Positions 23,940-54,061 of a stretch of 64,000 nucleotides of DNA are shown here, piece by piece (positions within the stretch are counted from its first letter, which is position 1; every line of letters begins with the position of its first letter). The stretch comes from Phycisphaerae bacterium (GTDB lineage: Bacteria; Planctomycetota; Phycisphaerae; Sedimentisphaerales; Anaerobacaceae). Made by a program: the position numbers and the translations under genes. The notes under the pieces were generated by a model. That model was not told the DNA's origin, did not search any database, and saw nothing but the letters and a program-made list of their open reading frames with translations. The stretch covers positions 1 through 64,000 of the forward strand of contig JAUWAY010000002.1 in NCBI GenBank assembly GCA_030601845.1. The letters are read 5' to 3'.

Positions 23940-24180
23940 CCCTCGTCCCTCGTCAATCTGCCTCTTACAACCTGATATCCTAATTCCTGGTATCCTGCGC
24001 CCTGATTTCCTGATATCCAGATATCCCAATTTCTGTCTTCTGTCCTCTGACATCGGGCATCGAGCATCGAGTATCGGGCATCGAGTATCGAGTCTTTTTC
24101 GTCCTCTGTCTTCTGACATCGGGCATCGAGTATCGGGCATCGAGTATCGAGTCTTTTTCGTCTTCTGTCCTCTTATACCA
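23940..24180. repeat. Composite tandem repeat region
   Basis: Three successive degenerate types are visible: 'tccctcg' units (about 23938-23955), 'tgatatcc/taattcc/tggtatcc' units (23972-24029), and a larger unit of about 59 bp present twice plus a partial copy (24030-24180), made of 'ttctgtcctctgacatcggg', 'catcgagtatcgggcatcg' and 'agtctttttcg'. The internal period is about 7 bp. There are no unique spacers, so it is not a CRISPR array. The open frames across it are artefacts of the repeat. Confidence 0.75.
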
Positions 24181-30319: not shown

Positions 30320-30373
30320 ATTCGTATTCTCGTAGCTCGTAGCTCGTATCTCGTGACTCGTATTGCGTGACAT
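30320..30373. repeat. Heptad repeat tract ('ctcgtag' type)
   Basis: About six consecutive 7-bp units, ctcgtag, ctcgtag, ctcgtat, ctcgtga, ctcgtat, tgcgtga, fill the short gap between two convergent genes (stops at 30317 and 30383). This is one of the cleanest examples of the window's degenerate heptad repeats. Confidence 0.8.
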
Positions 30374-43379: not shown

Positions 43380-43387
43380 AAATTTAA

Positions 43388-43424
43388 CCTCGTATCTCGT
43401 ATTTCGCTTCACGCTTCACTTTAT
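43388..43424. repeat. Heptad repeat tract at the kdsB 3' end
   Basis: ctcgtat, ctcgtat, ttcgctt, cacgctt, cac form a degenerate heptad run that encodes the last residues of KdsB (minus strand, '...KREAKYEIRG') and ends within a few bases of its stop codon. Confidence 0.7.
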
Positions 43425-43707
43425 ACCGAACGACGAACTCGGCGTATTGCTGTGGTGTATCTATGCCGTCGCAGGTGTGCTCGACTTTGCCGACCAAAAT
43501 TGAATAGCCATTTTCAATCGCTCGCAATTGCTCAAGTTTTTCGATTTTCTCCAGCGGGGTTTGCGGCAAAGAAGTAATCTTTAGCAGAAACTGTTTGCGA
43601 TAAGCGTAAATTCCAATGTGCCGCAGATATTGTTGTGTTTTTCCTATGCCGGATTTTTCCCTATCATAAGGAATGGGGGCTCGCGAAAAATAAATCGCCC
43701 TGCCAAT

Positions 43708-43742
43708 CTCGTGGCTCGTGGCTCGTGACTCGTGACTCGTAT
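43708..43742. repeat. In-frame heptad tract inside kdsB
   Basis: Five consecutive units, ctcgtgg, ctcgtgg, ctcgtga, ctcgtga, ctcgtat, lie inside the coding region and add about 12 residues to a loop that in ordinary KdsB is short ('DPNVVKVV...GRALYFSR'). Confidence 0.85.
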
Positions 43743-43927
43743 CACCAACACAGGGAGATATTATAACCTTTACGATATTAGGGTCGGCAATCTGCTCAGG
43801 ACTCTGGAACTCGGCAGCTAAGGTGGCCATTGGATAGTCTGGGTTTTTTATTAAAAGCTCGGCCAGATAATCGATATTTTCCGGGTCGATCTCCGGCTCA
43901 TCGGCCTGGAGGTTCACCACGATATCC

Positions 43928-43955
43928 GAATTTTGAATTTTGAATTTTGAATTTT
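43928..43955. repeat. Four GAATTTT units inside kdsB (frame-disrupting)
   Basis: Exactly four 7-bp units at 43928-43934, 43935-43941, 43942-43948 and 43949-43955. Because 7 is not a multiple of 3, each gain or loss of a unit changes the reading frame. It lies between the 'SGTDRIAEV' and 'VVNLQADEP' motifs. Confidence 0.9.
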
Positions 43956-44210
43956 CAGTATGACTTCAGCGATGCGGTCGGTGCCGCTTTTGTGCTCGAT
44001 TGAGGTTAGAATACATTCGGCTCCGAACGATTTGGCAGCAGCGGCAATTCTTTCATCGTCGGCTGCTATTATTACCTTGTCGGGTGTTTTAGCTAAACAG
44101 GCCTGCTCGTAGGTGTGCTGGACGAGGAATTTGCCGGTATCTTTGGCGAGAACCTTACCGGCGAATCTGGTAGAACCGTAACGAGCAGGAATACAAGCTA
44201 CAATTTTCAC

Positions 44211-44554
44211 GCTTATCCTTCCCGGCAGCAGAATTTTGTCAAAAAACCACTGCCGAAGCATACTAAACTAAGCAGAATCTTCTGTCAACAGGGCAAAATA
44301 ATTTCTTTTTGAAAAAAACTTAAACTTTGGCAGCACCACCTGGCGGCCTCCACAAAGACATGCTCAGCCGGACAAAGTGGCGGCTGCTCGGGCGCTAATT
44401 TAATAATTGCGGACTTGTAATCCGCAGCGGAGAGGATATATTCTATTGATTATTGACCATTGATTATTTACTATTGAAACAAAGAAAACGTTAACCAATC
44501 AGGGATTTTATTGCAGAACAGTAATGTCAAAACAATACTTAGGGAGTGGTAGTT
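44211..44554. other. Intergenic region between kdsB and the sugar ABC importer
   Basis: About 340 nt without a gene. It holds a hairpin 'gcggacttgtaatccgc' (44413-44430) and the 'ttgattattgaccattgatt' repeat (44446-44478), the complement of the one at 24229. The region should contain the promoters of the divergent kdsB and ABC operons, but no clear -35/-10 pair was picked out. Confidence 0.4.
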
Positions 44555-51707: not shown

Positions 51708-51745
51708 CCCGAACGAGCCACGAGGCACGAACCACGAGCGACGAA
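51690..51745. repeat. Heptad repeat tract across trpD/trpF junction
   Basis: ttgtgac, ccgtgac, ccgaacg, agccacg, aggcacg, aaccacg, agcgacg form seven or eight 7-bp units. The first half reads 'cgtgac', the second its complement 'ccacgag', so the tract is itself a loose inverted repeat. It contains the trpD stop codon and ends next to the trpF start codon. Confidence 0.85.
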
Positions 51746-51746
51746 T

Positions 51747-52370
51747 ATGTTGATAGTGAAGGTTAAAATTTGTGGCATTACCAATTACGAGGACGCCAAG
51801 ACAGCGATGGATATGGGTGCGGATTTATTAGGCTTTAACTTTTATCCGAAAAGCCCCAGGTTTATAGCTCCAGAGAAAGCAGCTGATATAATAAGCAAGC
51901 TGCCGGGCTTTATAGATATTGCCGGTTTGTTCGTCAATGCGAGCTACGAGCAAATCCGGGAAACGATAGACGAATGCCAGTTGGACTGGGTGCAATTGCA
52001 CGGTGATGAAAGCCCGAAGTTCTGCAGCGCCTTCCTTTCTCTGAATGTAAAAACAATGAAGGCCCTGCGGGTAAAAGACAAAAAAGACATCAAAAAAGCA
52101 GACAGTTATTTTACCGATGCTATTTTGCTGGATGCTTTCAACCCTGAGAAATACGGCGGTACGGGACTGACCTTTGACTGGAATATCGTGGGGCATATCG
52201 GCAAGCGTGTTTTCTTGGCCGGCGGGATAAACCCCGATAATGCAGTGGCAGCAGTTGAGCTGGGGGTTTACGGGATTGATGTATGTAGCGGCATCGAAGC
52301 TGAGCCGGGCAAAAAAGACCACAAGAAAATGAAAAAACTGTTTGAAAATATACAACACTTAAGAGGATGA
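51747..52370 (+). CDS. trpF: Phosphoribosylanthranilate isomerase
   Basis: A 207-residue TIM-barrel isomerase. The catalytic Cys is in 'VKICGITNYEDA' and the Asp in 'GTGLTFDW', with phosphate-binding 'LAGGINPDN' and 'GIDVCSGIE'. The ATG at 51747 is used; the GTG at 51756 (VKVKICG) is an equally plausible start because the ribosome site is poor. No trpC (indole-glycerol-phosphate synthase) lies before or after it, as it would in most trp operons. Confidence 0.93.
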   Translation: MLIVKVKICGITNYEDAKTAMDMGADLLGFNFYPKSPRFIAPEKAADIISKLPGFIDIAGLFVNASYEQIRETIDECQLDWVQLHGDESPKFCSAFLSLNVKTMKALRVKDKKDIKKADSYFTDAILLDAFNPEKYGGTGLTFDWNIVGHIGKRVFLAGGINPDNAVAAVELGVYGIDVCSGIEAEPGKKDHKKMKKLFENIQHLRG

Positions 52371-52434
52371 AATACGAATATCGAAATCCGAAACCCGAAA
52401 CAAATTCAAATGACCAAAATACAAAACTCAAAAC
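52370..52434. repeat. Left inverted arm of the four-helix-bundle cassette
   Basis: The stretch reads in steps of 'gaaatccgaaacccgaaac' and 'aaatgaccaaaatacaaaac', a degenerate short repeat. Its block cgaatatcgaaatccgaaa (52375-52393) is exactly complementary to 52811-52829 in the right arm. The start codon of the gene (52410) lies inside the arm. Confidence 0.8.
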
Positions 52435-52775
52435 GCTATGACCTGGAAGAGAGGACGCTTAAGTTTGCAAAGCGGGCCAGGGCTTTTGTTAAGAAACTGA
52501 AGAAAACCATAGCTAATATCGAAGATGGAAAACAACTGGTAAAAGCATCAGGTTCTGTTGGAGCAAATTACATTGAGGCCAACGAAGCTCTTAGTAAGAA
52601 AGACTTTGTTATGCGTATTAAGATATGCCGGAAGGAGGCCAAAGAGAGTGCATACTGGTTGAAGCTTGTCGACTCTGAGGACGACCCGGAACTGGAACGT
52701 GAAAGACACGAACTGATACAAGAAGCTACCGAGTTCACGAGTATCTTTGGGGCTATTTTGCGAAAGAGCGAATGA
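52410..52775 (+). CDS. Four-helix-bundle protein (23S rRNA intervening-sequence type)
   Basis: A 121-residue helical protein of the S23/IVSP family ('RTLKFAKRARAFVKKLKK', 'SGSVGANYIEANEALSKKDFVMRIKICRKEAKESAYWLKL'). In the family such proteins are encoded in intervening sequences of 23S rRNA or as loose genes; the related Avd protein serves diversity-generating retroelements. Their function is not settled. Here the gene sits in the trp operon between trpF and trpB, bounded by inverted repeats (52370-52434, 52776-52846), and has nothing to do with tryptophan. It is intact. Confidence 0.88.
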   Translation: MTKIQNSKRYDLEERTLKFAKRARAFVKKLKKTIANIEDGKQLVKASGSVGANYIEANEALSKKDFVMRIKICRKEAKESAYWLKLVDSEDDPELERERHELIQEATEFTSIFGAILRKSE

Positions 52776-52846
52776 GGTTTTGAGCATTTGGTATTTGAAT
52801 TTTGATATTGTTTCGGATTTCGATATTCGAATTTCGGATTTAGAGA
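52776..52846. repeat. Right inverted arm of the four-helix-bundle cassette
   Basis: gttttgagcatttggtatt, gaattttgatattg, tttcggatttcgatattcg and aatttcggattt mirror the left arm; the two arms pair over about 60 nt with one 7-bp unit and a few bases unpaired. A degenerate relative lies at 23853-23921. Confidence 0.8.
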
Positions 52847-52876
52847 CTATACGATGTGTGAGAAAGGATATGGGGT

Positions 52877-54061
52877 ATGAAGTATAGAGGTAGATTCGGT
52901 GATTATGGCGGCTTTTATGTGCCGGAGGTTTTGATACCGGTTCTGGAAGAATTGGAGGGTGCGTTTTATCGCTTTTACGAAGATGAGCGGTTTGTAACTG
53001 AGCTTGCTCAGCTTTCTAAGGATTACGCCGGCAGGCCCTCGCCGCTTTATTATGCGAAAAGGTTCAGCGAATATGTCGGCTTTAAGGTGTATCTAAAACG
53101 CGAAGACCTTCTGCACGGCGGAGCGCACAAAGTCAACAACACGCTCGGACAGGGCCTTTTGGCAAAGTATATGGGCAAAACCAAACTCATTGCCGAAACC
53201 GGCGCAGGCCAGCACGGCCTGGCTACCGCGATGATTGGGGCTTTGTTTGGTATGGAGACCAAAATCTTTATGGGCGTAACCGATATTGAGCGACAGAGCG
53301 TCAACGTCCATAAAATGAAACTATGCGGTGCAGAAGTCATTCCGATTGAAGGAGGGACAGGGACACTGAAGGACGCTATCAACGAGGCCCTTCGCTACTG
53401 GACGGCTCACGTTACCGATACGTTTTATCTTTTCGGCTCGGCCTGCGGGCCGCATCCATACCCTACGATAGTAAAACATTTTCAAACCTGTATTGGCGAA
53501 GAGACAAGGCAGCAGTGTCTTGAGCAAATCGGCAAATTACCGGATATGATTGTCGCCTGTGTCGGCGGCGGCAGTAATGCGATAGGTATTTTTTCTGCCT
53601 TTCTGGACGATAAAGACGTGAAGCTAATTGGTGTCGAAGCAGGTGGAAGGAGCTTGGCCAGCGGCAAGCACGCTGCGACACTGGTAGCCGGTCGGGTCGG
53701 CATCTTACACGGAGCAAAATCGTATCTGCTGCAGGACAAAGAAGGCCAGGTTCACGATACCGAATCGGTAAGTGCGGGGCTGGATTACCCGGCCGTTGGG
53801 CCGGAACATTGTTTGTTAAAAGATACCGGCAGGGCCAAATACGTCGCCGCAGAAGATGCCGAGGTGCTTGATGCCTTTGAGCTGCTGAGTAAAAGTGAGG
53901 GGATACTGCCAGCTTTGGAAAGCGCACATGCTTTGGCGTATCTTTGCCGCCAAAAAGGAAAGTTATCGCCGGATACAATTGCGGTGGTAAATCTTTCCGG
54001 CCGAGGCGATAAAGATGTTTCAATCGTGGAAAAACGAAGAAGCGTATCTCGTGAAGCGTGA
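52877..54061 (+). CDS. trpB: Tryptophan synthase beta subunit
   Basis: A 394-residue PLP enzyme condensing indole with serine. The PLP lysine is in '[12 protein letters not shown]', 'ETGAGQHG' and '[10 protein letters not shown]' are intact, and the N-terminal '[17 protein letters not shown]' is typical of TrpB1. The end 'SVSREA' with the stop codon (54059-54061) lies within a heptad repeat. A broken toxin-antitoxin pair on the other strand separates it from trpA by 860 nt. Confidence 0.96.

Follow-up and report, generated by a model that had tools for sequence, protein, structure and literature searches.

Heptad-repeat arms around an IVP gene between trpF and trpB: a probable IVS-like mobile cassette in a Phycisphaerae bacterium

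We know of no function for the IVP/S23p protein family, which to our knowledge is mostly known from insertions in rRNA genes. In the intervening sequence (IVS) of the Coxiella burnetii 23S rRNA, three copies of GACAGAT plus one of GACAGAA lie directly before the S23p start codon, the terminal stem is 28 bp long with the RNase III sites inside it, and S23p is thought to be untranslated (PMC4990558). Heptamers in front of the ORF are a trait of the Coxiella element and not a general defining feature of IVSs. ORFs of the same family sit at scattered sites in rRNA insertion sequences of CPR bacteria (PMC11270868), and IVP genes occur in cas operons (e.g., cmr3-cmr2; PMC3936711), where their placement at an operon junction looks like the one described here; the passages of these two papers on which we draw make no mention of heptad arms. 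In the Beggiatoaceae, the heptanucleotide TAACTGA forms direct repeats just before start codons and a post-transcriptional regulator has been proposed as its reader; neither inverted pairs nor IVP genes are described in the relevant part of that report (PMC4679880). We found no description of operon cassettes of the heptad-armed IVP type in the open-access full-text literature.

The locus analyzed here lies in a 64,000-nt stretch of contig JAUWAY010000002.1 from a Phycisphaerae bacterium (GCA_030601845.1), hereafter the window, at the junction of two genes of the trp operon. Its features are:

51747..52370, + strand: trpF, the upstream host gene (ORF list and comparison with relatives)
52370..52434, + strand: left arm (arm alignment; cores conserved in 59 homologous left arms)
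52410..52775, + strand: IVP gene (23S_rRNA_IVP / S23p), encoding a four-helix-bundle protein of 121 aa, pI 9.3
52776..52846, + strand: right arm, inverted (arm alignment; 61 homologous right arms)
52877..54061, + strand: trpB, the downstream host gene (ORF list and comparison with relatives)

The cassette occupies the trpF-trpB intergenic region and not the rRNA location that is a criterion of an IVS. The left arm's outermost core shares bases with the TGA stop codon of trpF. An earlier, sequence-only reading of the window had proposed that the arms enclose a four-helix-bundle gene alone, with its start codon in one arm, and this description holds: 52410-52775 is the sole ORF between the arms, its ATG lies inside the left arm at the inner edge, and the product matches PF05635.

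The inverted arms themselves, 52370-52434 and 52776-52846 in that reading, are equally well founded. Aligned with each other they score 33.5 over ~64 nt (gapped local alignment), while shuffled sequence reaches a maximum of 18, which rules out a chance inverted repeat. About 1500 other positions of the window with the same spacing also reach a maximum of 18, save two control samplings at 33.5 that are taken to be the cassette locus itself. Ungapped, the arms are 71-76% complementary over 59-65 nt, and the 19-nt block 52375-52393 is the exact reverse complement of 52811-52829. The left array (52368-52399) consists of five 4-nt cores spaced 7 nt apart (starts at 52368, 52375, 52382, 52389 and 52396), a TGAA followed by four CGAA; the arm reads TGAA ATA CGAA TAT CGAA ATC CGAA ACC CGAA ACA AATTCAAATGACC, with AAACAAATTCAAATGACC..., in which the start codon of the gene lies, following the array. 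The right array (52812-52843), with four TTCG and one TTAG, is an inverted array of the same kind. In the predicted RNA (52365-52850) an outer stem of ~25 bp holds the gene in its loop (MFE -138.8 kcal/mol, z -5.6).

Both the Coxiella IVS and the cassette measure ~430-480 nt, have complementary ends and place tandem heptamers just ahead of an S23p/IVP ORF, a kind of ORF that the larger IVSs carry; both are patchy in distribution, have spread horizontally and contain a gene that degenerates. The cassette differs in that it resides in a protein operon rather than in rRNA, uses a different heptad, has five cores in both arms, and has gene-less and solo-arm derivatives scattered through the genome. 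That the Coxiella IVS follows the same plan with another heptad is the strongest support for the label “IVS-like”, which the sequence-only reading had already applied; protein family, complementary ends and heptamer plan all agree with it (PMC4990558).

In profile searches the cassette protein matches PF05635 (E 1e-10) and TIGR02436, above cut-off, and its AlphaFold model is a confident four-helix bundle (pLDDT 93). Foldseek matches include 2rld, an S23-family structure, and 2gsc (Xcc0516), with weaker matches to the Avd proteins of diversity-generating retroelements (DGRs; 8ub7, 4dwl). The 2rld and 2gsc structures contain five chains apiece, and Xcc0516 is a homopentamer according to Lin 2006, as cited in passages of PMC4990558 and PMC10053308. 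Avd, a DGR accessory protein, is comparable as a pentameric four-helix bundle with a nucleic-acid partner; unlike in DGRs, however, neither an RT nor a template or variable repeat was found alongside the element.

A protein search recovered close relatives of the IVP gene in many phyla, among them Planctomycetes, Scalindua, Brocadia, numerous phyla of the CPR, Deltaproteobacteria, Omnitrophota, Nitrospirota, Verrucomicrobia and one Methanophagales archaeon. If the cassette is a unit, as had been supposed, its arms should accompany the gene at other loci, and at most of them they do: by motif search of 81 loci, left arrays were found at 70, right arrays at 66 and both at 59. The family was likewise found with its arms at non-rRNA sites, where the sequence-only reading had suggested looking for it, and overlap with rRNA was seen at none of the 80 related loci. 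With none of these 80 close relatives in rRNA, a direct link between the cassette and rRNA insertions is missing.

The cores are well conserved among these relatives. With an arm finder that demands the two innermost cores and leaves the remaining core positions free, the frequency of AA in cores 0-4 was 1.00, 1.00, 0.97, 0.95 and 0.92 in 59 homologous left arms, and 1.00, 1.00, 1.00, 1.00 and 0.95 in 61 homologous right arms; it falls to 0.31 (left) and 0.21 (right) at the sixth position outward, and to 0.03 and 0.02 inward. In comparisons of 1081 element pairs, the proteins are identical at 0.65 of their positions and the 4-fold degenerate sites at 0.292 (chance, 0.265), whereas arm cores agree at 0.85. 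Since the cores are alike across phyla despite saturated synonymous sites, the arms are constrained and not a product of chance.

This constraint does not appear to extend to the pairing of the arms. In the core CxAA, x is G, T or C. An element's two arms share the same x in 54 of 59 cases, and the protein tree requires a minimum of 8 switches of this base. Likeness between left and right arms is confined to these x columns; elsewhere in the arms, left and right agree at 0.752 within an element, versus 0.748 between elements (permuted). Among 40 G-type elements, the duplex energy is -31.7 kcal/mol for an element's own arms and -32.2 kcal/mol for swapped arms, with 3702 of 5000 permutations as low. 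As swapping brings no loss of pairing, the heptad, and not the stem, looks like the recognized unit. A stem kept by compensatory change along its length is unsupported, the covariation being confined to the repeated x base. The stem is able to form, yet selection appears to act on the heptad rather than on base pairing; what is finely selected in the arms is not their pairing. By these comparisons, the arms are under constraint by heptad type, and gene plus arms form one unit in many phyla.

Arms of this design are common at IVP genes in general. In ~30 genomes belonging to the same family as the window, inverted repeats that exceed the 95% control level flank 62 of 100 IVP genes, as against 2.9% of 174 other genes of these genomes. 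Period-7 arrays occur upstream of 63 and downstream of 58 IVP genes, with 0-7 at other lags; arrays are present on both sides of 47% of IVP genes and of 5% of controls, and heptad arrays lie upstream of 21% of control genes. The heptad varies by subfamily (TAGTATT, GCGTATT, GATTGCG, CAGATAA, AGTTTTG and GTTCATT, among others), and heptad agreement within one element's arms is 0.717, versus 0.452. Heptad likeness climbs with protein identity, from 0.44 (<40% identity) to 0.66 (60-80%), which partly reflects common descent. Across 30 genomes of other phyla, inverted arms were found at 70% of 30 sampled genes, lag 7 being the commonest, with lag 8 also represented. Five cores are the mode beyond the close family, without being universal (28 of 63 upstream and 20 of 58 downstream arms). 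A heptad-protein match across phyla was clear only at ≥ ~65% identity (rank 1, two cases; overall p = 0.06), and such matching is only suggestive.

Heptad arrays are also frequent elsewhere in the window, which contains 12 lag-7 arrays versus 0-3 at every other lag from 4 to 13. A solo five-core array (ACGA x5, 32 nt) lies at the trpD-trpF junction (51713-51744, + strand), and more 7-nt-period arrays with other heptads, several with exactly five cores, are located at 30329-30361, 43708-43740, 44444-44475 and 24031-24152. Two arrays interrupt kdsB (43380-44215, - strand), AAAATTC x4 with a frame change and CTCGTGG/CTCGTGA (33 nt), while the frame of relatives is open without them; kdsB of genome G022 (locus L357) has a third array, AAAACTC, elsewhere in the gene.

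The sequence-only reading had raised the possibility of a mobile element, and comparisons of insertion sites bear it out. The trpF-trpB junction is empty in many relatives (~2-20 nt), several carry other heptad-type repeats there, and among the relatives compared the window's genome alone has a gene-bearing element at this site. Gene and arms recur together at a diverse set of further sites, also in other phyla, and phyla are intermixed in the protein tree of the relatives. At leuC-leuD, the site is empty in G011 and G008, while the full gene is present in G015 and G020, a truncated gene in G018 and G076, a solo right arm in G064, and a gene-less hairpin in G003, G022 and the window's genome; as to whether this junction was entered once or repeatedly, the tree needs 3 changes and a single clade is not rejected (p-AU 0.79), so that either history would fit. 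Copies decay into gene-less hairpins and solo arms, as this series shows. A close copy of the gene occurs in 18 of 60 family genomes and the arm repeat in 46 of 60, many of them without the gene; in the window's genome the repeat is found at 48 places, the weakest of which are doubtful.

Several other arrangements were observed at these sites and elsewhere. At trpF-trpB of a relative, L126 (G034), there is a nested gene-less insert; its outer ends are AAATCC...GGATTT, and the arms inside them belong to another type of repeat. At the leuC-leuD junctions L207, L210, L211 and L215 of relatives, the insert comes from another family of four-helix-bundle cassettes (MQNDK...FKKRLY...), whose inverted arms differ and are rich in A. 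In G080 (L177-L181, L187) and G068 (L189-L192), which represent two genera, a MITE with ends TACTACAGCGCAACTTAGC.../...GTTGCGCTGT encloses the gene-less heptad hairpin, and the near identity of its copies in G080 suggests that it spread recently. In the window's genome, solo left arms (e.g., L006, L008, L009, L010, L013 and L014) run to a fixed inner end, ...TTCAAAAC, where they are joined to unrelated dispersed repeats (GCCACAGAGGACACAGAG, CACGGATTACACGG and GAGATTCTTCGC), as though modules of intergenic repeats had been strung together.

Dispersal of the arm repeat in the window's genome and in many family genomes without the gene, together with gene-less hairpins, some within another MITE, would also suit ordinary MITE/REP-like heptad repeats moved by a host transposase, the four-helix gene being a bystander between two copies. 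We regard this as unlikely, given that the same arms surround the same gene in many phyla, that matched inverted heptad arms mark 62% of IVP genes and 3% of controls with a heptad that differs by subfamily, and that the truncated leuC-leuD copies represent arms left after gene loss. The cassette resembles MITEs and REP-RAYT systems in its short, gene-less inverted-repeat derivatives, dispersed intergenically, but differs from them in the lack of a target-site duplication, in its heptad-built arms, in the specific protein gene inside, and in that no Y1 transposase was found in the window's genome (75% complete). The suspicion that the arms are chance members of a dispersed repeat is half right: the repeat is dispersed, but the pair around the gene is not a chance one.

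Gene-bearing elements are strongly oriented. Their upstream gene is co-directional in a ratio of 67:3 and their downstream gene in a ratio of 65:5 (ORFs called with a simple script); the left end falls mostly -2 to +8 nt from the stop codon, and the element's first AA often finishes a TAA stop. Gene-less arms in the window's genome show little bias (15:10). Selection for expression is thus the probable cause of the bias in gene-bearing copies, although the two sets of counts come from different samples. The position of co-directional gene-bearing copies between a stop and the next start, and the pairing of the arms in the predicted RNA (z -5.6), could instead mark a domesticated RNA module, in which the arms are an RNase III substrate that splits the trpF and trpB messages or regulate trpB. 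This is improbable, as a gene-bearing element at trpF-trpB is confined to the window's genome among the relatives compared, swapped arms pair as well as own arms, and sites are diverse across genomes.

Terminal inverted repeats are present, as in a MITE or an insertion sequence, and 35 elements with both ends showed no excess of direct repeats ≥4 nt that would indicate target-site duplication. The candidate inserting enzymes searched were Y1_Tnp and RVT_1 only: Y1_Tnp (RAYT) is absent from the window's genome (75% complete), and RVT_1 is absent from that genome and from the near-complete genomes of the carriers G030, G061 (99%) and G015 (98%). As for vehicles, there was no match in phages, viral contigs, PADLOC or PHROGs, and plasmids carry distant relatives only, mostly cyanobacterial. 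The inserting enzyme presumably acts in trans. It could in principle be a reverse transcriptase working with an Avd-like protein, as in a DGR-like retroelement, with which the Avd fold (8ub7, 4dwl), the missing target-site duplication and the orientation bias of gene-bearing copies are consistent; the absence of RVT_1 from the genomes named and the little orientation bias of gene-less arms make such an origin improbable. Least probable of all is that 7-nt polymerase slippage produced the arrays and that they flank IVP genes merely by chance: repeats of seven nucleotides are frequent in bacteria (see the literature quoted in PMC4679880), 21% of control genes also have a heptad array upstream, and the arrays in kdsB could be local expansions, but slippage leaves unexplained the equal-type inverted arrays on both sides (47% of IVP genes vs. 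5% of controls), the sharp five-core length, and the cross-phylum conservation at saturated synonymous distance.

The family-wide matched arms, the empty trpF-trpB sites and the Coxiella plan together argue for an IVS-like mobile cassette outside rRNA. The locus is probably a small, selfish mobile element of IVS type set in a protein operon, with its own IVP protein as the probable reader of the heptad ends. Its layout runs from a five-heptad arm through the IVP/S23p gene to an inverted five-heptad arm, directly behind the trpF stop, and the whole would be transcribed together with the trp operon. As a basic four-helix bundle with pentameric solved relatives, IVP may be the cognate heptad reader; by analogy with those structures, the five cores per arm suggest one heptad per subunit of a possible pentamer. 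Whether in mobility or in expression, the protein might bind these ends in the form of RNA or single-stranded DNA. In the transcript, the arms would pair, so that the insert could be tolerated or processed (RNase III), like rRNA IVSs.

More tentatively, and with rather more doubt than expectation, IVP/S23p proteins in general could be pentameric readers of a heptad code, every subfamily binding a heptad of its own at both cassette ends, with five per arm and thus one for each subunit. They would then be the basis of pan-phylum, transposase-less mobile elements, of which the rRNA IVSs, and perhaps the Avd of DGRs, would be specialized offshoots. The IVP/S23p family gains a concrete candidate ligand in the five-heptad arrays, and in the genomes surveyed the usual home of IVP genes is a small intergenic cassette. 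CRISPR-associated IVP genes, as reported in passages of PMC3936711 and PMC10910872, may be operon-junction cassettes and not functional cas partners. A cassette design formerly known mainly from insertions in rRNA genes is widespread in protein operons across phyla, and heptad cassettes may account for one class of dispersed 7-nt repeat that environmental bacteria carry.
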